Positions 38,212 to 49,361 of a stretch of 64,000 bases of DNA are shown here, piece by piece (within the stretch, counting starts at the first letter, position 1; each line of letters opens with the position of its first letter). The notes under the pieces were generated by a model that saw only the letters and a list, made by a program, of their open reading frames with translations, was not told the origin of the DNA and made no database searches. A program made the translations under genes and the position numbers. Location of the stretch: assembly GCA_017613735.1 (NCBI GenBank), contig JAGADF010000009.1:186001-250000 (forward strand). The letters run 5' to 3'. The stretch is from Clostridia bacterium (GTDB lineage Bacteria; Bacillota; Clostridia; Oscillospirales; Acutalibacteraceae).

Positions 38212-38223
38212 ATATCTTTTTAA

Positions 38224-38313
38224 CGGAGAGCAAGGGATTCGAACCCTCGAAGCCGTTTTAGCAGCTTACACGATTTCCAATCGTGCTCCTTCGACCAGCT
38301 CGGACAACTCTCC
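38224..38313 (-). tRNA. tRNA-Ser (GGA)
   Basis: 90-nt class II tRNA on the minus strand: acceptor GGAGAGT/GCTCTCC, anticodon stem CACGA/TCGTG with loop TTGGAAA (anticodon GGA), long variable arm, T-loop GTTCGAATC, discriminator G. Confidence 0.95.
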
Positions 38314-38402
38314 GCGTCTGCCTTGATATTATATTAGACTTATCGAAAAAAATCAAGTGTTTTATATAATCATTTTTTCTAACTATTGCCTTTGTCGAAT
38401 GA

Positions 38403-38431
38403 TTGACAATTATTTATATATAGTGTATTAT
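38403..38431 (+). promoter_or_regulatory. Promoter of the polysaccharide locus
   Basis: TTGACA, 17-bp spacer, TATTAT, 54 bp before the aminotransferase gene. It probably drives the 16 collinear genes up to 54476; the rest of 38314-38484 is AT-rich and holds no gene. Confidence 0.88.
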
Positions 38432-38484: not shown

Positions 38485-39750
38485 ATGCTTTTTACTGAAG
38501 ATTCAAGATTCGAAGGAATTGAAAAATTTGATAATAAATGCTGGCTTTCAAGCCCTACTATGCACGGTGATGAGAAGCATTGGGTTGATGATGCAATACT
38601 TACAAACTGGGTTTCTACTATCGGCGAAAACATTAATGAAGTAGAAAAAGAAATGGCAAGTATTATCGGCGTTAAATATGCCGTTGCGCTTTCGTGCGGT
38701 ACGGCCGCTCTTCATCTCGCCGCAAAACTAGCCGGTGAAAAACTATACGGTCAGCCCAAGGCTGACAGCGGCTATTTATCGGGCAAAAAGGTTTTCTGTT
38801 CCGATATGACCTTTGACGCGTCCGTTAATCCCGTCGCTTATGAAAACGGAGAGGCTGTATTTATCGACAGTGAGCGCGATACGTGGAATATGGATCCGGA
38901 TTCACTTGAAAAAGCCTTTGAGATTTATCCCGATGTAAAGCTCATTGTTCTTGCTCATCTGTACGGCACGCCCTGTAAGATGGAAAGCATCAGAAGGATT
39001 GCAGATGAACACGGCGCTCTTATTATTGAAGACGCTGCAGAAAGTCTCGGCGCAAAATATCTTCTTAACGGCGAATGGGTTGAAACGGGAAATCTCGGAA
39101 ATTACAACTGTATTTCTTTTAACGGCAATAAAATTATCACCGGAAGCTCGGGCGGAATGTTCCTGACAAATTCAAAGGAAGATGCCGATAAGGTTCGTAA
39201 ATGGAGTACTCAGAGCAGAGAAAACGCTCCCTGGTATCAGCATGAAGAACTCGGGCATAACTACAGAATGTCGAATATTGTTGCGGGCGTTGTAAGAGGT
39301 CAGATGCCTTATCTGAACGAGCATATAGCTCAGAAAAAAGCAATTTATGAGCGTTATAAAAAAGGCTTTGCCGACTTGCCCGTAAGTATGAATCCCTATG
39401 ATGCCGTCAACAGCGAACCGAATTTCTGGCTTTCCTGTTTGATTATCGATAAGGACGCTATGGCACAACAGACGCGAACAGGTTTAACCTATACATATAA
39501 AACCGAAAACGGCAAAAGCACTCCTTCGGAAATACTTGACGCGCTTGCGGCTTTTAATGCCGAGGGCAGACCGATATGGAAGCCTATGCATATGCAGCCG
39601 ATTTATAAATCACATCCGTTTGTTTCCGCAAACGGCGAAGATGTCGGCGCTGATATTTTTGAACGCGGACTTTGTCTGCCGTCCGATAACAAGATGACTC
39701 CCGAACAGCAGGATAAAGTTATAGAAATAGTTCACAGATGTTTTAGATAG
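38485..39750 (+). CDS. DegT/DnrJ/EryC1-family sugar aminotransferase, PglE-like
   Basis: 421 aa, PLP-dependent aminotransferase that aminates a 4-keto (or 3-keto) nucleotide sugar. Seen: SCGTAALHLAAKLAG near 72, the DMTFDASVNPV segment, EDAAESLGA, PLP-lysine in SFNGNKIITG near 213, RMSNIVAGV, and the C-terminal GRPIWKPMHMQPIY signature typical of PglE/WlbC-like enzymes. A NeuD/PglD-like acetyltransferase and a PglC-like transferase lie downstream, so UDP-4-amino-sugar (bacillosamine-like) synthesis is likely; no 4,6-dehydratase is in the window. Base composition is like the housekeeping genes, unlike the next genes. Confidence 0.9.
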   Translation: MLFTEDSRFEGIEKFDNKCWLSSPTMHGDEKHWVDDAILTNWVSTIGENINEVEKEMASIIGVKYAVALSCGTAALHLAAKLAGEKLYGQPKADSGYLSGKKVFCSDMTFDASVNPVAYENGEAVFIDSERDTWNMDPDSLEKAFEIYPDVKLIVLAHLYGTPCKMESIRRIADEHGALIIEDAAESLGAKYLLNGEWVETGNLGNYNCISFNGNKIITGSSGGMFLTNSKEDADKVRKWSTQSRENAPWYQHEELGHNYRMSNIVAGVVRGQMPYLNEHIAQKKAIYERYKKGFADLPVSMNPYDAVNSEPNFWLSCLIIDKDAMAQQTRTGLTYTYKTENGKSTPSEILDALAAFNAEGRPIWKPMHMQPIYKSHPFVSANGEDVGADIFERGLCLPSDNKMTPEQQDKVIEIVHRCFR

Positions 39751-39788: not shown

Positions 39789-40451
39789 ATGAAGACATTA
39801 GTAATTGCACCCCATCCGGATGATGAGATAATTGGAGTTGGAGGAACAATAGCTAAGAGAACCAATGATGGTAATGATGTATATGTTTGTGTTGTTACAA
39901 AAGGAACGGCACCTATTTTTGAAAGTGATTTTATAGAAAAAGGTAGAGAAGAGTGTAGAAAAGCAGATAGATTTCTGGGAGTAAAAGAGACAATTTTCCT
40001 TGATTTCCCTGCAGCTATGCTTGAAACTGTTCCCAGATATCAGTTTAATAAAGCATTTGAAGAAGTTATCTCAAATATTAAACCTGATGAAGTGTTTATA
40101 CCACATAGAGGTGATATGCAATTGGATCATCAATTAGTTGTTGATGCTGCTATGGTTGCTATGAGACCAAAGTATGAACACACACCTAAACGCATATATG
40201 CTTATGAAACTTTGTCTGAAACAGGTTGGAATATACCAAATTCTTCAAATGAGTTTATACCGACTGTGTATGAAGACATAACTTTTACTCTTGATAAAAA
40301 AATCGAGGCAATGAGGTTTTTTGAAACACAATTATCGTGTTTTCCCGCTGCTCGGTCTTTAATTGCCATTGAATCTTTGGCGAAATATCGGGGTGCTACA
40401 GTTAATTTTTTAGCTGCTGAAGCGTTTTCATTGATAAGAGAGATTAAATAA
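39789..40451 (+). CDS. PIG-L/LmbE-family deacetylase
   Basis: 220 aa. Zinc-dependent N-deacetylase fold: metal motif APHPDDEIIGVGG at 7-19 and the third ligand region HRGDMQLDHQLV near 109-120. Family members remove N-acetyl groups from GlcNAc conjugates (GlcNAc-PI, mycothiol and bacillithiol precursors, glycan intermediates). In this polysaccharide cluster it could free an amino group on a lipid- or nucleotide-linked sugar. First gene of the AT-rich block; SD CGGAGG precedes the ATG. Confidence 0.9.
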   Translation: MKTLVIAPHPDDEIIGVGGTIAKRTNDGNDVYVCVVTKGTAPIFESDFIEKGREECRKADRFLGVKETIFLDFPAAMLETVPRYQFNKAFEEVISNIKPDEVFIPHRGDMQLDHQLVVDAAMVAMRPKYEHTPKRIYAYETLSETGWNIPNSSNEFIPTVYEDITFTLDKKIEAMRFFETQLSCFPAARSLIAIESLAKYRGATVNFLAAEAFSLIREIK

Positions 40452-40452
40452 T

Positions 40453-41088
40453 ATGAAACGTCAATTCTACCTGGTAATAAAGCGTTGCTTTGATATAATT
40501 TCGGCTTTGTCTCTTTTTATCCTACTAATTCCTCTATTTGCATTAATATGCTTGTTGGTAAGAATAAAAATGGGCAGCCCTATATTCTACCGTCAAGTTA
40601 GAAGCGGAAAAAACCGTAAACAGTTTTCAGTCATTAAATTTCGTACTATGACTAATCAGACGGATGAAAATGGTAATCTATTGGCAGATGAGTTTCGCCA
40701 AACAAAGTTTGGAAATTTTTTACGTTCTACGTCATTGGATGAGTTACCTGAATTGTTATCAATTGTAAAAGGGGATATGTCAGTTATCGGTCCAAGACCG
40801 CTACCCATTAAATACAATGAATATTTCAATGAAAGGGAACTGAAAAGATTTGAAGTCCGAAGTGGGTTGTTACCTCCGGATTCTGTTGAATCATCTGCAA
40901 TTATATCGTGGGATAAGCAACTTGAATATGAAGCTGATTATGCGGAAAACATTTCATTACATAATGACATTAAAATCTTTTTTTCTGCTATAAAGATTCT
41001 ATTCAAAAGAAACGAAACAAATTACGGTAGTTTTGTAAGGTTACCATTGGATGAGGAGAGAATTTCATGGAATACAGTAAAGCGTTAA
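40453..41088 (+). CDS. Bacterial sugar transferase (monotopic phosphoglycosyl transferase), PglC-like
   Basis: 211 aa, the short single-domain form. N-terminal re-entrant membrane helix (about 10-35), then FYRQVRSGKNRKQFSVIKFRTMT, catalytic region LRSTSLDELPELLSIVKGDMSVIGPRPLP near 98-126. Transfers a phospho-sugar from UDP-sugar to undecaprenyl phosphate, starting the repeat unit. Length and motifs match PglC/WecA-unrelated family enzymes. No SD; starts 1 bp after the deacetylase gene, so coupling is likely. It overlaps the next gene by 22 bp. Confidence 0.92.
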   Translation: MKRQFYLVIKRCFDIISALSLFILLIPLFALICLLVRIKMGSPIFYRQVRSGKNRKQFSVIKFRTMTNQTDENGNLLADEFRQTKFGNFLRSTSLDELPELLSIVKGDMSVIGPRPLPIKYNEYFNERELKRFEVRSGLLPPDSVESSAIISWDKQLEYEADYAENISLHNDIKIFFSAIKILFKRNETNYGSFVRLPLDEERISWNTVKR

Positions 41089-42302
41089 TTGATGATATAA
41101 AAGAACAGTTCGAATTACCTTGTTATGTTTTTGATGAAAATGAGTTTAGAGAAAACTATCTGCATTTATTAAATGCATTGAGAGAGTACTATCCAAAGTA
41201 TGATATTGCTTATTCATATAAGACTAACTATGCCCCAAAGCTTTGTTCAATAGTTAAAGAGTTAGGCGGGTACGCCGAAGTCGTTTCCGATATGGAGTAT
41301 GATATAGCACGTAAAGTTGGTTATAAAAATGAATTAATTATCTACAACGGTCCCTTTAAGGGCCCAAAAATGGAAGAACATTTGTTAAACAATGGCATTT
41401 TAAATATTGATAATATGAACGAGTTGGATCGTGTTATTTCTTTTGCCTCAAATTATGATAAAACTTTTAAAGTTGGTATTAGAGTCAATATTTCTATTGG
41501 TCAAAATTTCATATCACGATTTGGTATAGATGCTGAATCAAACGATTTAACTAAGGCCGTTAACTTGATTAAAGAGTGTAATAATGTCAAACTGGTTGGT
41601 TTTCATTGCCATATTGGTCAATGCAGAAGCCTATCTGCGTGGGAGAACAGAACCAAACAATTGTTAAAGTTGGCAGATATGTATATTGATGGAATACCTG
41701 AATATATTGATTTGGGCAGTGGAATGTTCGGTGATATGCCGTCTGATTTGAAAGGACAATTTAGCAGTGTTCCGACTTATGAAGAATATGCATGTGTTAC
41801 TGCAAAAATCTTCAATGAACATTATATTGATATCCCGTTAGAGAATAAACCTGTTTTATTTACTGAACCCGGAACTACTGTTGATAATAGATATATAGAT
41901 TTAATAGCTGAAGTTGATGGAGTTAAAAAACTGAAAGGTAAGGATTTTGCAATTCTTAACTGTTCAATACATAATCTGGGAGATGTAGCGTGTTCTGTAA
42001 AGCTTCCAATTCAGGTTTTTGAGTGTTCAAATAACAGTAAAGAATATATTGATATGGACTTTGTTGGTTATACATGTTTGGAACGAGATGTTCCTTATAA
42101 AGGGTTTTCCGGCAAGATTGGAAAAGGAGATTACATTGTATTTGGTAATGTAGGAGGATATTCAAACGTTGATAAACCTCCGTTCATTCTTCCTCAATGT
42201 CCGATGATAGGAATTAAGGATTCAAAAGTATATGTTATTAAACGAAAGGAGACAACTGAAGATATTCTTTCGACATATGTTTTTAATGAGCATTCTTTTT
42301 GA
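41067..42302 (+). CDS. PLP-dependent fold-type III amino acid decarboxylase (LysA/ornithine-type)
   Basis: 411 aa. Alanine racemase-like barrel with PLP-lysine in YSYKTNY near residue 50, VSDMEYDIA, YNGPFKG, VGFHCHIGQ near 179, GSGMFGD glycine loop, FTEPGTT near 269 and a C-terminal beta domain with the active-site Cys in YTCLERD, as in diaminopimelate, ornithine and arginine decarboxylases. The substrate is not clear: it does not look like the housekeeping lysA. Its place between a sugar transferase and an ATP-grasp gene suggests it makes an amine or amino acid for a glycan substituent. SD GGAGAG is 8 bp upstream. Confidence 0.85.
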   Translation: MEYSKALIDDIKEQFELPCYVFDENEFRENYLHLLNALREYYPKYDIAYSYKTNYAPKLCSIVKELGGYAEVVSDMEYDIARKVGYKNELIIYNGPFKGPKMEEHLLNNGILNIDNMNELDRVISFASNYDKTFKVGIRVNISIGQNFISRFGIDAESNDLTKAVNLIKECNNVKLVGFHCHIGQCRSLSAWENRTKQLLKLADMYIDGIPEYIDLGSGMFGDMPSDLKGQFSSVPTYEEYACVTAKIFNEHYIDIPLENKPVLFTEPGTTVDNRYIDLIAEVDGVKKLKGKDFAILNCSIHNLGDVACSVKLPIQVFECSNNSKEYIDMDFVGYTCLERDVPYKGFSGKIGKGDYIVFGNVGGYSNVDKPPFILPQCPMIGIKDSKVYVIKRKETTEDILSTYVFNEHSF

Positions 42303-42322
42303 ATAAAATGTGAGGTATAGAA

Positions 42323-43387
42323 ATGAAAGATATTACCGTACTATTAACTGCTGCCGGGTCTCCATCTTCTCCGGGTTTGATTCGTTGTTTGAAGAACAAT
42401 GGAGAGAGAAATGTTCGTGTAGTTGGCACAGATATGAAAGCCGATGCAACTATAAATCAAATGGCAGATGTTGTTAGACTTGTTCCACCTGCTTCGGATC
42501 CGTTTTATGTTGATGCTCTTTACGATATTTGTAAGGAAGAAAAAGTAGATGTTCTTATTCCGGGCATTTCACAAGAGCTTTGTGAATTGCAACAGAGAAA
42601 AAAAGATTTTGATTTAATAGGAACCAAAGTATCTGTTTCCGACGGAGATGGATTGCTTATTGCAAATGATAAAATAAGTTTGTATCAATATATGCTTCAA
42701 AATGGATTTAGTGTTCCTGAGTTTTGTGTTGTTGATTCTATAAGTGGATTTAAAGAAGGATGCAAGAAAATAGGTTATCCTTCAAAACCTATCTGTGTGA
42801 AAATTAAAGATGGAAGTGGAAGTCGCGGAATAAGATTGATCGATCCTTCTAAATCGCGTTTTGATATTTTTATAAATGAAAAACCGAACTCCTTTTACAC
42901 AACATATGAGGATATGTTATCTATTCTTAATGAAGCTGAGATTTTTCCTGAACTTATGATTATGGAATTGCTTCCTGGTAATGAGTATTCTGTTGATTTG
43001 TTGGCTGATCATGGTAAAGTGATTTATATGGTTGGCAGGGAGAGTAATGTAATTAATGCAAGTATTCCTCAAGAAGCAACTCTTTCACCCAATGAACATG
43101 CATATAGTATTTCTGAAAGAATTGTTCAAAGTCTGCAATTAGATGGAAATGTTGATTTAGATTTTAAATTTGACAAAGACGGTATACCGCAGCTTATTGA
43201 GATTAATCCAAGATTGGCGGCGACATTATCGGTAATTGCTGCCGGAGGTATTAATCTTTTATACTTAAGAGTTAAACAGTTATTAGGTGAGAGTTTGCCA
43301 GAGTTAAAAGTTAATTACGGAGTTAAATTGAAAAGAAGATATCACGAGCTGTTTTGTGACAAAAACGGTAATCCTATTTGCTTATGA
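42323..43387 (+). CDS. ATP-grasp ligase
   Basis: 354 aa. N-terminal Rossmann-like pre-ATP-grasp domain (VLLTAAGSPSSPGLIRCL), a central ATP-grasp fold (about 115-300) with VKIKDGSGSRGI as the P-loop-like strand, IMELLPGNEYSVDLLA and the metal-binding LIEINPRLAATLSV near 292. CarB/PurK-like family that couples a carboxylate to an amine through an acyl phosphate. In this locus it could attach an organic or amino acid to an amino sugar. SD GAGGT precedes the ATG. Confidence 0.87.
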   Translation: MKDITVLLTAAGSPSSPGLIRCLKNNGERNVRVVGTDMKADATINQMADVVRLVPPASDPFYVDALYDICKEEKVDVLIPGISQELCELQQRKKDFDLIGTKVSVSDGDGLLIANDKISLYQYMLQNGFSVPEFCVVDSISGFKEGCKKIGYPSKPICVKIKDGSGSRGIRLIDPSKSRFDIFINEKPNSFYTTYEDMLSILNEAEIFPELMIMELLPGNEYSVDLLADHGKVIYMVGRESNVINASIPQEATLSPNEHAYSISERIVQSLQLDGNVDLDFKFDKDGIPQLIEINPRLAATLSVIAAGGINLLYLRVKQLLGESLPELKVNYGVKLKRRYHELFCDKNGNPICL

Positions 43388-43418
43388 TTCTTTGTATATA
43401 AAAATGGAGAGCACATTT

Positions 43419-44588
43419 ATGTCCGAGATAAAATATGCACTTATAACAACTGTTGATCAAAGTATAAAAAGTTTTATGTTACCTTATGCAGAAAAACTAT
43501 CGGATAAAGGTTATAAAGTGTATTTAATATGCAATTTTACTGATGAGAACTATGAGAAATACAGTAAGAGTTATGAATGTATTAATATTGATATGAAGCG
43601 CGGATTTGACTTTTTTTCAACTATTAAAACTATTTATACTTTAAAAAAGTTTTTTTTAAAGGAAAAAATAACTGTTGCAGAATATGGTACTGAAAATGCT
43701 GCCTTTTGTGCTTCAATTGCCGCTAAAATAAGTAAAGTTCCAGTCAGAATTTATGATCATTGGGGAGCCAGATATGTTGGTTTTGAAGGTTTTTTTAGAA
43801 AATTATCAAAATTAATTGAAAAAATTGCTTCAAAGTTCTCGACCGATATTAGACAAGTTAGTGAAAAAAACATGAAAATGTGCATTGACGATGGCCTTTA
43901 TAAACCTGACAAAGTTAAGGTTCTTGGTAAGGGAGGAACAGTTGGAGTTGATTTTTCTGTTTTTGATTATTCGCAAAAATCAACGTTTAATAAATCTGTT
44001 AGAGATCAACTGAATATCTCTTACGATTCTTTTATATATGGATTTGTAGGTAGAATTCAAAGTGATAAAGGCTTAAATGAGTTGTTAGCTGCGTTTAAAA
44101 CAATTGTCAATGATAATGAAAACGTGTTTCTTGTAATTGTTGGCGCGGAGGATAATGTGAATCCTTTAAATCCTGAATTAATTGAGTGGGCCAAAAATAG
44201 TACCAGAGTTTTTTTTACGGGACCCGTAAACGATGTTTATAGGTATATTAGCTGCTTTGATGTTCTGGTTCATCCTACGTACAGAGAAGGGTTTGGGATG
44301 GTTCTTCAAGAAGCCGGTGCGCTTAAGGTACCAATTATTACTACGGATATAATTGGACCGGGTGAATTTATTATTGATAAGGAAACCGGTGAATTAGTTC
44401 CTCCAAAAGATGTTAATCAACTATATAGTGTTATGAAAAAGTATTTGCTTGATAGAGAATTAATAAGTAATTATGCTGAAAGAAATTATAATTACACTAA
44501 GAGTTTTTTTGAAAGGCAAGTAATGGTTAATCGAATCGTTGACGATCGAGTTTCAGTTATAAATAATAGAATCCATAATAGTCTCTAA
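43419..44588 (+). CDS. Glycosyltransferase family 4, PglA/CapM-like
   Basis: 389 aa. GT-B fold: N-terminal acceptor domain with HWGARYVGFEGFFRK near 110, then a donor domain with VKVLGKGGTVGVDF, GFVGRIQSDKGLNELL near 220, FFTGPVNDVYRYISCFDVLVHPTYREGFGMVLQEAGALKVP with the EX7E-type motif near 300. Similar to GT4 enzymes that add the second sugar to an undecaprenyl-linked amino sugar. I chose ATG 43419 (SD GGAG 10 bp upstream); the upstream in-frame extension overlaps the ATP-grasp gene and has no SD. Confidence 0.9.
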   Translation: MSEIKYALITTVDQSIKSFMLPYAEKLSDKGYKVYLICNFTDENYEKYSKSYECINIDMKRGFDFFSTIKTIYTLKKFFLKEKITVAEYGTENAAFCASIAAKISKVPVRIYDHWGARYVGFEGFFRKLSKLIEKIASKFSTDIRQVSEKNMKMCIDDGLYKPDKVKVLGKGGTVGVDFSVFDYSQKSTFNKSVRDQLNISYDSFIYGFVGRIQSDKGLNELLAAFKTIVNDNENVFLVIVGAEDNVNPLNPELIEWAKNSTRVFFTGPVNDVYRYISCFDVLVHPTYREGFGMVLQEAGALKVPIITTDIIGPGEFIIDKETGELVPPKDVNQLYSVMKKYLLDRELISNYAERNYNYTKSFFERQVMVNRIVDDRVSVINNRIHNSL

Positions 44589-44600
44589 TGGAGGGGAAAA

Positions 44601-45434
44601 ATGTCTTTAACATTAATGTACATTACTAATAAACCTGAAATTGCAAAAGTTGCTCAAATTGCCGGTGTTGATCGAATTTGGGTAGATATGGAATACATTG
44701 GTAAGGAGATTCGCCAGCATGGAATGGATACTGTTAAGTCCCATCATACTTTGGAAGATGTGCATAATATAAGAAAAGTTGTTACTTCTTCTGAATTAAT
44801 GGTACGTATTAACCCCATTCATGATGAAACTTCATATTATTCAAATAGTGAAAACGAAATTGAAGATACAATTCAAGCAGGTGCAGATGTATTAATGCTT
44901 CCAATGTTTAAAACGCCAAAAGAAGTTCAACGCTTTGTTGATTGTGTTAATGGACGTTCAAAAACTATGCTGCTTTTTGAAACGATGGATTCTGTAAATA
45001 ATATTGATGAAATTTTACAAATCGATGGAATAGATGAGGTTCATATCGGTTTAAATGACTTACATTTGGATTATAAAAAAAAGTTTATGTTTGAATTATT
45101 GTGCGATGGAACTGTTGACTATATGTGTGATGTTTTTAAAAGGTATAATAAAAAATTTGGCTTCGGCGGAATAGCTCGAGTTGGATTTGGCATGTTACCG
45201 GCAGAATATATTATTACTCATCATTATTATTTAGGTTCAACTGCCGCAATACTTTCAAGAGGTTTTTGCGATGCAAATAAAATTGATAATCCTGAAATTG
45301 TCAGAGATTTGTTTATTGAAGGAGTTAGCAATATTAGAAAAAAAGAAGATGAAGTTTCAAATTATACATTAAGACAATATAAAGATAACTATGAGATAAT
45401 AAAAGAAATTGTTTATAAAATCGCTAATGGCTGA
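44601..45434 (+). CDS. HpcH/HpaI aldolase-like (citrate lyase family) protein
   Basis: 277 aa TIM barrel. VDRIWVDMEYIGK near 24, MVRINPIHDE near 74, a metal-binding Glu in LLFETMDSV near 132 and the GLNDLHLDY motif near 155 match class II pyruvate aldolases of the HpcH/HpaI family, which join or split 2-keto acids and aldehydes with a divalent metal. It has lost typical N-terminal residues, so its exact reaction is open. SD GGAGGGG precedes the ATG. It sits next to a 2-hydroxyacid dehydrogenase homologue, which suggests a small keto/hydroxy-acid pathway. Confidence 0.83.
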   Translation: MSLTLMYITNKPEIAKVAQIAGVDRIWVDMEYIGKEIRQHGMDTVKSHHTLEDVHNIRKVVTSSELMVRINPIHDETSYYSNSENEIEDTIQAGADVLMLPMFKTPKEVQRFVDCVNGRSKTMLLFETMDSVNNIDEILQIDGIDEVHIGLNDLHLDYKKKFMFELLCDGTVDYMCDVFKRYNKKFGFGGIARVGFGMLPAEYIITHHYYLGSTAAILSRGFCDANKIDNPEIVRDLFIEGVSNIRKKEDEVSNYTLRQYKDNYEIIKEIVYKIANG

Positions 45435-45474
45435 TTTAATAATTCCTATATTATAAAACTTCAAAGGTGATTTT

Positions 45475-46443
45475 ATGAAAAAAAAGACTGTTCTTACTGA
45501 AATCAAAATTAATAATAGCAATGAAGAACTTCCAAGTTTTGAATTCAAACAATTGAACTACGGCAGCCGATTGTTGAATTATTTGTCTGATTGCAAAAAG
45601 AAAAAAGCATTAATTAGTTCAATCACAGAAGAGGTTGATGCGATAATATGCTGTAGAGCAAGTGCAACAATTCTTGCTGATATTGATACTAAAAACATTA
45701 AATTAATACAATTAACGAGTACCGGATATGACGGAGTTCCTGTTGAAAGATTAAAACTTAAAGGTATTACTGTTTGTAATCTTAAAACTGTGTACGATAT
45801 TTCAATTGCCGAGACTGTTGTATATGGTTTGATTCGTTATGTCAAAAGATTCCGTAATAGAGTTAACAATAATACGCCTAAACTTTTTAGGCACTATACT
45901 TGCATGACGGAATTGAATAATAAAAATGTACTTATTATGGGTGCCGGTAATATTGGTTCGAAAATAGCAGACAGATTATATGGATTGAATATGAGAGTAA
46001 TAGGGTACGACGTTAACAAAGATGTTTGCGGTAGGTTTGAATACATTATCGACAATAAAGAGCAATTGATTAATGAATTACAAGAGTTTGACTATATAAT
46101 ATCAACTCTTCCTTTGGTTAAAGATACGGTAAAATTCTGTGATAAGACATTTTTTGATGCAATGAGTAAAACAGCTGTCTTTTTTAATATCGGACGTAAT
46201 GATACTGTTGATAGTATGTCGTTGTATTCAGCATTAAAGAATAATGATATTGGTGGCGCCATTATTGATACGGTTGAGTTACTTCCATATCCTTTGTTTA
46301 ATAGATTTAGGCGGTTAAAGAATTGTTTGGTCCTTCCGGGTATTGCAACATCTAGTGAAGAATGCAACGAAAGAGTTCAGTCACGTATTATTGCTAATTT
46401 GACTGATTTTTTCGATAATAATTTGTGCCAGGATGAGATTTAA
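45475..46443 (+). CDS. D-2-hydroxyacid dehydrogenase homologue without catalytic His
   Basis: 322 aa. NAD-binding domain with MGAGNIGSKIADRLYGLNMRVIGYD near 148 and the family layout: LPLVKDT near 210, Arg in NIGRNDTV near 235, Glu in DTVELLPYP near 268. The usual catalytic His in a PHIA-type motif is replaced: LPGIATSSEE near 290. This suggests altered or lost dehydrogenase chemistry. SD AAAGGTG precedes the ATG. The neighbour is an HpcH-like aldolase. Confidence 0.85.
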   Translation: MKKKTVLTEIKINNSNEELPSFEFKQLNYGSRLLNYLSDCKKKKALISSITEEVDAIICCRASATILADIDTKNIKLIQLTSTGYDGVPVERLKLKGITVCNLKTVYDISIAETVVYGLIRYVKRFRNRVNNNTPKLFRHYTCMTELNNKNVLIMGAGNIGSKIADRLYGLNMRVIGYDVNKDVCGRFEYIIDNKEQLINELQEFDYIISTLPLVKDTVKFCDKTFFDAMSKTAVFFNIGRNDTVDSMSLYSALKNNDIGGAIIDTVELLPYPLFNRFRRLKNCLVLPGIATSSEECNERVQSRIIANLTDFFDNNLCQDEI

Positions 46444-48752: not shown

Positions 48753-49361
48753 ATGAAAAAAATTGTAATTATTGGTGCATCGGGACACGGCAAGGTTGTA
48801 GCTGATATTGCATTAAGATGCGGATATGATGAAATTGCTTTTCTTGATGATAATGAATCAGTAAAAACCTGCGGTAAATGGGACTGTATCGGGAAAACCG
48901 ATATGGCTTCGCAATTGAATGATGATTTGTTTATAGCAATTGGAAATGCCGATGTCAGAAAAGCTTTTTTTGACCGTTTAAAAGATAAAAAAATTGTTTC
49001 TCTTGTTCATCCCCAGACCGTTATTGCCAATAGTGTGAAAATTGGCAGAGGAACAGTCATAATGGCTGGTGCTGTAATTAATCCCGATGCCGAAATCGGT
49101 GAAGGTTGCATTATTAATACCTGTTCATCAGTTGACCATGACTGTAGAATCCGTGATTTTGTGCATATTTCGGTCGGCGCGCATATAAGCGGAACCGTAG
49201 AAATCGGTGAATTTACATGGGTAGGTGCGGGTGCAACTGTAAGTAATAATATAAACATCTGCGGTAACTGTGTTTTGGGTGCAGGCGCGGTCGTTGTAAA
49301 AGATATTTCAGAATCAGGAACATATATAGGTGTTCCAGCTAAAGTAATTAACAAAATGTAA
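48753..49361 (+). CDS. NeuD/PglD-family sugar acetyltransferase
   Basis: 202 aa. N-terminal Rossmann-like UDP-sugar binding domain (VIIGASGHGKVVADIALR, FLDDNE) and a C-terminal left-handed beta helix; the catalytic His lies in TCSSVDHDCRI near 130. Same length and layout as Campylobacter PglD, which acetylates UDP-4-amino sugar to UDP-diNAcBac. With the PglE-like aminotransferase at 38485 it would make an N-acetylated 4-amino sugar. SD GGTGAG precedes the ATG. Confidence 0.91.
   Translation: MKKIVIIGASGHGKVVADIALRCGYDEIAFLDDNESVKTCGKWDCIGKTDMASQLNDDLFIAIGNADVRKAFFDRLKDKKIVSLVHPQTVIANSVKIGRGTVIMAGAVINPDAEIGEGCIINTCSSVDHDCRIRDFVHISVGAHISGTVEIGEFTWVGAGATVSNNINICGNCVLGAGAVVVKDISESGTYIGVPAKVINKM

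Follow-up and report, generated by a model that had tools for sequence, protein, structure and literature searches.

We found that seven collinear genes at 39789-46443 of a 64,000-nucleotide stretch from a Clostridia bacterium (the window; assembly GCA_017613735.1, contig JAGADF010000009.1, positions 186,001 to 250,000) may represent two exchangeable modules added to a known starter-sugar cassette, and not one seven-step pathway. We put the probability of this reading, including the module chemistry proposed below, at about 0.45. Module A consists of a PIG-L family de-N-acetylase, a fold-III pyridoxal phosphate (PLP) decarboxylase and an ATP-grasp protein, and module B of an HpcH/HpaI-family protein (HpcH) with a D-2-hydroxyacid dehydrogenase homologue (HDH); a PglC-like transferase and a family 4 glycosyltransferase (GT4) complete the run. 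A preliminary description had named these families within a glycan locus, and all seven genes are present there, intact and on the + strand of the open reading frame (ORF) list, with spacings of -22 to +40 bases and with every protein above its own Pfam cut-off.

The module boundaries were computed from the neighbourhoods of relatives (loci are labelled L and genomes G). PIG-L, LysA-like decarboxylase and ATP-grasp genes occur together in all five loci with a close ATP-grasp relative (at least 46% identity), namely the window, L052, L132, L133 and L142, and no HpcH relative was found at E 1e-5 in the trio-bearing genomes G308 (L133), G355 (L132) and G439 (L142). PIG-L was found in only 1 of the 92 HpcH loci other than the window and L052 (Fisher p 9e-8, kinship ignored), as well as in L144, which lies outside those 92. 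The preliminary description had expected the seven families to co-occur elsewhere, and its claim did not fall for want of co-occurrence, because all seven recur in one other locus, L052. The order there is DegT, NeuD, HpcH, PIG-L, PglC, LysA-like, ATP-grasp, GT4 and HDH, and the proteins are 46-72% identical to those of the window (64% for DegT). The grouping is more than chance, as these families are found side by side in further genomes; an obligatory single pathway is not supported.

The PIG-L, decarboxylase and ATP-grasp module

The PIG-L protein has the PHPDDE motif and the Pfam score of a de-N-acetylase of this family, and its PDB matches include diacetylchitobiose deacetylase and N-acetylglucosamine (GlcNAc)-malate deacetylase. 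The best matches of the decarboxylase are to FslC, an N-citrylornithine decarboxylase (structure 7kh2, 112.9 bits), with diaminopimelate decarboxylases behind. The NCBIfam FslC/FigC model is likewise its best match, at 133.7 bits against a cut-off of 500, so the protein is not a member, and it also scores below the LysA model (about 128 bits, cut-off 297.9). That it is the housekeeping LysA was ruled out, as another gene of the genome scores 460.5 bits. The usual motifs of such decarboxylases are EPGR and CESxD; in the eight decarboxylases aligned, EPGT (as in the window) or EPGS stands in place of EPGR and the Cys motif reads CxExD. In PMC7857480, FigC is grouped with SbnH, AcsE, MccE and BtrK, and SbnH, AcsE and MccE are described as acting on citryl- or aminocarboxypropyl-modified substrates. 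The position of the window decarboxylase nearest the FslC/FigC clade therefore supports a substrate that would be a modified amino acid, its distal end already joined to something.

The ATP-grasp protein has the fold, the ATP-binding Lys and the ExNPR motif of its superfamily (EINPR in the window; Glu is replaced by Asp in two of four close relatives, L125 and L142). The best Foldseek match of its AlphaFold2 model (predicted local distance difference test, pLDDT, 89.4) is 2pn1, and the amino-acid ligase RizA is at rank 16. The Pfam name ATPgrasp_Ter hints at Ter-operon biosynthesis, on which a single literature search found nothing.

Searches with the decarboxylase matched 4 of 391 class genomes (E 1e-45) and 4 of 398 of the phylum (E 1e-60), own genome counted in both. 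Among the eight decarboxylase loci, L052 included, five carry the ATP-grasp gene, while L028, L143 and L144 carry a BCAT-type aminotransferase and HpcH; PIG-L is present in the five ATP-grasp loci and L144, and PglC in seven, not L144. At E 1e-45, the ATP-grasp protein has matches in 8 of 391 class genomes: its own, G355, G308 and, at 32-34% identity, five that belong to a single other family. Within the family of G355, the only match among 148 genomes is G355 itself.

Several features were noted around these genes. In L134-L138, the 32-34% ATP-grasp relatives adjoin a gene on the opposite strand, about 280-300 residues long and similar in appearance in all five. In L143 (3264-7757, reverse complement), genes resembling phosphonate (aminoethylphosphonate) synthesis by eye lie upstream of HpcH-LysA-PglC-BCAT. 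In L133 (4070-6502, reverse complement), GNAT-like and fold-II PLP enzyme-like genes and a second ATP-grasp gene (61 bits) lie between PglC and PIG-L.

In the proposed mechanism of module A, PIG-L would take the N-acetyl group off an amino sugar, and the ATP-grasp enzyme would couple a carboxylic acid, probably an amino acid via its side chain, to an amine. The fold-III decarboxylase would then strip the alpha-carboxylate of the amino acid so modified, in the manner of FigC and SbnH with citryl-amino acids, so that the N-acetyl group would be replaced by an amine-ended amide. The amide-decorated amino sugar suggested in the preliminary description is a plausible product; for both modules, all substrates, the order of steps and the product are inferred.

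The same description had the aldolase and dehydrogenase make an acid and the decarboxylase an amine, which the ATP-grasp enzyme would join on the PIG-L-freed sugar in one linear pathway. The recurrence of all seven families in L052, in another order, and the decarboxylase genes beside HpcH in L028, L143 and L144 are in line with this. We consider it unlikely, as the trio is found in three genomes without HpcH, this ATP-grasp gene is in only 2 of 94 HpcH loci (the window and L052), and the window dehydrogenase has lost its Glu-His relay (described below); the proposed feeding of the ATP-grasp step by the aldolase and dehydrogenase is not supported.

A second possibility, also unlikely, is that an amine produced by HpcH, an aminotransferase and the decarboxylase is linked to a uronic acid, comparable to the serinol amide that glucuronic acid carries in the Campylobacter jejuni capsule. 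The window holds a UDP-sugar dehydrogenase gene, HpcH, BCAT and decarboxylase genes occur together in L028, L143 and L144, and an ATP-dependent ligase provides a precedent in PMC13276843. Against it, PIG-L, predicted to yield a sugar amine, is present in 5/5 ATP-grasp loci, and the three BCAT loci revealed no such ATP-grasp gene in the stretches covered.

The HpcH-family protein and its exchangeable partners

At E 1e-15, an HpcH relative is present in 20 of the 391 class genomes, own genome counted. A scan of GTDB contigs with HpcH gave at least 594 matching stretches, of which at least 566 encode a relative; the best 80 of these 566, mostly from Clostridia by record title, were analysed. Together with 19 further neighbourhoods and the window, and less four duplicates (L043, L064, L076 and L102), they make 96 HpcH loci, of which 94 were scored with an HpcH ORF; L051 and L056 stand outside the 94, being HpcH-DegT fusions. 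Named isolates that carry the HpcH module include Ruminococcus bromii YE282 (L078) and [Clostridium] citroniae WAL-17108 (L049). Within 6 kb of HpcH, counted with profiles derived from these same loci, in a set containing related metagenome-assembled genomes and with weak matches included for NeuD, PglC was found in 82 of the 94 loci, HDH in 52, NeuD in 27, DegT in 22, Ldh2 in 21, a PP-loop asparagine-synthetase-like protein in 16, a sugar-transfer ATP-grasp in 4, PIG-L, LysA-like decarboxylase and another ATP-grasp in 3 each, and the window-type ATP-grasp and BCAT in 2 each. For one or two representatives per family, Pfam and NCBIfam confirmed the assignments. In the 70 loci that extend 4 kb to either side of HpcH, PglC lies within 6 kb in 66, and HDH, Ldh2 or BCAT within 7 kb in 55.

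The partner of HpcH was exchanged repeatedly. On a tree of 96 HpcH sequences (the 94 plus L143 and L144), labelled by partners within 7 kb, 43 have an HDH that retains the Glu-His relay, 21 Ldh2, 9 a relay-less HDH, 4 BCAT and 19 none; the HDH of L110, split in two pieces, was labelled relay-bearing by hand, and the long branches of L038 and L144 meet on this tree. Across the labelled rows, no fewer than 13 partner changes are needed. Close relatives with different partners include L040 (Ldh2) against L041 and L042 (relay-less HDH), and L072 (Ldh2) against L088 (relay-less HDH). HDH and Ldh2 occur together in only one of the 94 loci, L114, where Ldh2 is partial (136 bits) at a contig edge, and this mutual exclusion has a Fisher p of 6e-8, kinship ignored. 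The simplest reading is that HDH, Ldh2 and BCAT would act on one 2-oxo position.

Single-ORF fusions join the module to further genes. HpcH-DegT fusions occur in L051 and L056 (80% identical, possibly a single event), PglC-HpcH fusions in L062 and L099 (49% identical), an HpcH-GT4 fusion in L046 and a GT4-HDH fusion, with relay-less HDH, in L056. Every fusion partner is homologous to a neighbour gene in the window, and the fusions tie module B to bacillosamine-type cassettes. DegT stands alongside relay-less HDH in 8 of 9 loci, as compared to 0 of 43 for relay-bearing HDH.

The active sites of the two module B proteins are incompletely conserved. In HpcH, E127 and D153, presumably metal ligands, and R69, which we take to be the Arg that binds pyruvate or another oxoacid, are invariant in 55/55 sequences, and E127 and D153 correspond to a Glu and an Asp in YfaU (2vws). 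Position 32, the place of the catalytic His of the HpaI DxEH motif, is Tyr in 37/55 and His in 1/55. The AlphaFold2 model (pLDDT 94.2) has distant Foldseek matches to malyl-CoA lyase, the citrate synthase SbnG, aldolases of the HpaI type and pyruvate kinase barrels (query TM-score 0.56-0.65 among the matches listed), YfaU and AbHpaI being matched at about 0.6. The protein thus has the barrel fold, the metal ligands and the Arg of class II pyruvate aldolases and lacks the His of DxEH.

The window HDH has the NAD-binding domain and keeps the Arg that we assume to be catalytic, and the two columns that we take to form the Glu-His relay of D-2-hydroxyacid dehydrogenases have changed to Leu and Gly, a loss also evident against 8hpg and 2dbq. 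In its 10-member group, out of 55 rows, Arg is kept in 10/10, the Glu column holds 5 Leu and 5 Ile, and the His column 9 Gly and 1 Arg; among the other 45 rows, 44 of which cover the columns, there are 44 His, 43 Glu and 1 Asp. A Glu three residues after the Asp of a DxxE stretch was considered as the catalytic Glu and was ruled out by 8hpg and 2dbq, where the true relay Glu precedes Pro; it is this residue that is lost. With the relay gone, ordinary 2-hydroxyacid chemistry cannot be assumed in the window, and its loss argues against a plain hydroxyacid dehydrogenase there. The preliminary description had seen the motifs of each family in all seven genes, which holds for PIG-L, the decarboxylase and ATP-grasp and only in part for HpcH and HDH.

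In the proposed module B, the metal-dependent HpcH-family enzyme would make or use a 2-oxoacid, the partner (the HDH homologue here, Ldh2 or a BCAT-type aminotransferase elsewhere) would convert the 2-oxo group, and the hydroxy- or oxo-acid-derived product would be attached during assembly of the starter sugar. Taken further, this would be a widespread and undescribed starter-sugar decoration, in which HpcH acts on, or is channelled to, a nucleotide- or lipid-linked amino sugar, the exchangeable partners (D-dehydrogenase, L-dehydrogenase or aminotransferase) fix the chirality or the nitrogen content of the substituent added, and relay-less HDH serves as an imine reductase in DegT loci, giving carboxyalkylamino sugars in the surface polysaccharides of Clostridia; we offer this extension as a speculation that is more probably wrong than right by a wide measure.

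Related to it is an opine-like reaction, in which module B would put a carboxyalkylamino group on a 4-amino sugar by joining a 2-oxoacid to the amine and reducing the imine with relay-less HDH or Ldh2. The Glu-His acid may be dispensable for reducing an imine, enzymes with this activity are known in the Ldh2 family, and both the HpcH-DegT fusions and the company of relay-less HDH with DegT would suit it. However, that company may be clade inheritance and HpcH would have to help supply the oxoacid, and we regard this alternative as unlikely.

Several results weigh against the two-module reading. The HpaI His is absent from the window HpcH protein and from 54 of 55 HpcH sequences overall, and together with the lost Glu-His relay this leaves both aldolase and dehydrogenase activity uncertain; the dehydrogenase homologue may be a subunit with no catalytic role. 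In 15 of the 70 HpcH loci with 4 kb of flank at either end, no oxoacid enzyme was detected within 7 kb. On the side of module A, the window-type ATP-grasp was not found in the stretches of L028, L143 and L144, three of the eight decarboxylase loci, and the 32-34% ATP-grasp relatives in five genomes showed no cassette genes by profile where flanks were readable. No glycan structure or assay was found for any compared locus.

Other proteins near HpcH were also seen. The PP-loop asparagine-synthetase-like protein (16 HpcH loci, including L024, L078 and L089) is very divergent, with a weak match of 23.6 bits; it accompanies the relay-bearing dehydrogenase, lacks the N-terminal Cys in the three examined and is a possible alternative amide ligase. 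L032, L036 and L097 have HpcH, no detected oxoacid enzyme and a different ATP-grasp near PglC, which in L032 has a D-Ala-D-Ala ligase-like C-terminal domain.

The surface-glycan locus and its starter cassette

The gene unit starts one gene before PIG-L, with DegT, and the locus extends to 54476 with a Wzy polymerase, several glycosyl- and acyltransferases and a putative flippase without Pfam match; nucleotide-sugar genes follow on the reverse strand. The window holds a predicted Wzy-type surface-polysaccharide locus, in agreement with the glycan setting first described. At its edge, directly ahead of DegT, lies a tRNA-Ser gene (- strand, 38223-38314), and a promoter-like TTGACA-17-TATTAT is present at 38403-38431, such sites being regionally no commoner than chance. 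For GT4, the ATG at 43419, with GGAG ahead, is a better start than the GTG at 43356.

Table 1. Genes of the starter cassette and of the two modules in the window
Feature	Coordinates	Strand	Evidence and remarks
DegT aminotransferase, PglE-like	38485..39750	+	Pfam DegT 254 bits; predicted 4-amino sugar maker of bacillosamine-type starter
PIG-L family de-N-acetylase	39789..40451	+	Pfam PIG-L 88.5 bits; PHPDDE
PglC-like phosphoglycosyl transferase	40453..41088	+	Pfam Bac_transf 171 bits
Fold-III PLP decarboxylase	41067..42302	+	Pfam Orn_Arg_deC_N 71.5 bits; SYKTN, HCHIG motifs intact
ATP-grasp carboxylate-amine ligase family protein	42323..43387	+	Pfam ATPgrasp_Ter 94.9, PylC-like_N 55.5 bits
GT4 glycosyltransferase	43419..44588	+	Pfam Glycos_transf_1 116 bits; kind found in DegT-PglC-NeuD-GT4 cassettes
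HpcH/HpaI-family protein	44601..45434	+	Pfam HpcH_HpaI 53.6 bits
D-2-hydroxyacid dehydrogenase homologue (HDH)	45475..46443	+	Pfam 2-Hacid_dh_C (PF02826) 108 bits
PglD/NeuD-type sugar N-acetyltransferase	48753..49361	+	NCBIfam TIGR03570 224.5 bits, cut-off 160.8; Pfam PglD_N

Both modules appear to sit on a bacillosamine-type cassette of PglE-like DegT, PglC, PglD-like NeuD and GT4. The best PDB sequences for DegT are 1o61 and 4ztc, which we take to be C. jejuni PglE. The window PglC has the Bac_transf domain and falls in a starred 17-row tree clade, 15 rows of which have DegT and/or NeuD within 1.6 kb, and this grouping with PglD/PglE-flanked homologues would make it a PglC; its end branch is long (1.49) and its exact place unsure. 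It is not the PglC that adjoins HpcH in most loci, as the tree splits the two kinds and L072, L088, L096 and L098 carry both. A PglF-like dehydratase of 637 residues is encoded on another contig of the genome. GT4 relatives occur in DegT-PglC-NeuD-GT4 cassettes in L157 (a 5.4 kb contig), L158 and L160, in which HpcH, HDH and Ldh2 were not found by profile; in L159, PglC lies 4 kb from GT4, and DegT and NeuD were not found in the fetched part. The genomes of L157, L158, L159 and L160 are not among the HpcH matches of the 391-genome class search. The first sugar would be made by the PglF-like dehydratase, DegT and NeuD, and handled by PglC and then GT4.

The surface-sugar locus seems to have been acquired, as the low GC content (0.31-0.35 from PIG-L through HDH, as compared to 0.437 in bases 1-36000) and the failure of an E 1e-60 search for the ATP-grasp gene in 58 other relatives (35 from the genus itself, and not all genomes complete) both point to this. 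The same observations, along with the absence of ATP-grasp matches from 147 other genomes of the G355 family, would also fit a mosaic capsule locus, its modules brought together by horizontal assembly and acting on different residues. Repeated co-occurrence and the fusions among DegT, PglC, HpcH, GT4 and HDH homologues speak against it, and we hold it to be distinctly unlikely.

Significance and comparison with known systems

The gene set was not found described in the literature searched, most subscription papers being outside reach, while each part has known relatives. With relatives in at least 566 GTDB stretches and a PglC-type transferase within 6 kb in 82 of 94 loci, HpcH appears to be a common and so far uncharacterised component of surface-glycan synthesis. 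If the swapped partners place D-OH, L-OH or NH2 at one and the same position, the stereochemistry of a surface substituent could be foretold from gene content. The trio of module A would carry modified-amino-acid decarboxylases beyond siderophores and antibiotics to glycans.

Bacillithiol is made by BshA, BshB and BshC, through a GT4, a PIG-L enzyme and amide formation. The window shares the GT4 and the PIG-L enzyme, with amide formation predicted, and BshB1 is the best NCBIfam model for its PIG-L protein. However, the scores lie below the BshB and BshA cut-offs and its GT4 belongs to a DegT-PglC-NeuD cassette even without HpcH. A bacillithiol-like reading, in which GT4 glycosylates a hydroxyacid, is lowered because the GT4 relatives in L157, L158 and L160 occur in cassettes without HpcH, HDH or Ldh2.

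The starter cassette resembles C. jejuni Pgl and Bacillus subtilis EpsL/EpsD in its PglE-like DegT, PglD-like acetyltransferase, PglC-clade transferase, GT4 and PglF-like dehydratase; in B. subtilis, EpsL uses UDP-N,N'-diacetylbacillosamine (UDP-diNAcBac) and EpsD is a GT4 that uses UDP-GlcNAc, according to PMC10653937. Unlike bacillosamine-initiated glycans, the window adds PIG-L, decarboxylase, ATP-grasp, HpcH and dehydrogenase. We know of no such five-enzyme additions in the C. jejuni Pgl or B. subtilis EpsL/EpsD systems.

Staphyloferrin B and rhizoferrin synthesis likewise combines an HpcH/HpaI-fold enzyme (SbnG, 4tv5, at Foldseek rank 46), a FigC/SbnH-like decarboxylase and an ATP-dependent amide ligase. 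In contrast, the putative ligase of the window belongs to the ATP-grasp proteins and lies in a glycan locus; at E 0.001, Pfam showed no IucA/IucC (NIS) synthetase in the 20 window proteins scanned from 38485 to 58805.

The C. jejuni capsule uronamide pathway (HS19.11, Cj1438) offers a capsule locus with an ATP-dependent amide ligase. According to PMC13276843, this ligase is fused as a domain to a GT2 and couples serinol phosphate to glucuronic acid as an amide; PMC12414870 is also among the precedent papers. Unlike the C. jejuni ligase, the ATP-grasp protein of the window stands alone, beside a PIG-L deacetylase.

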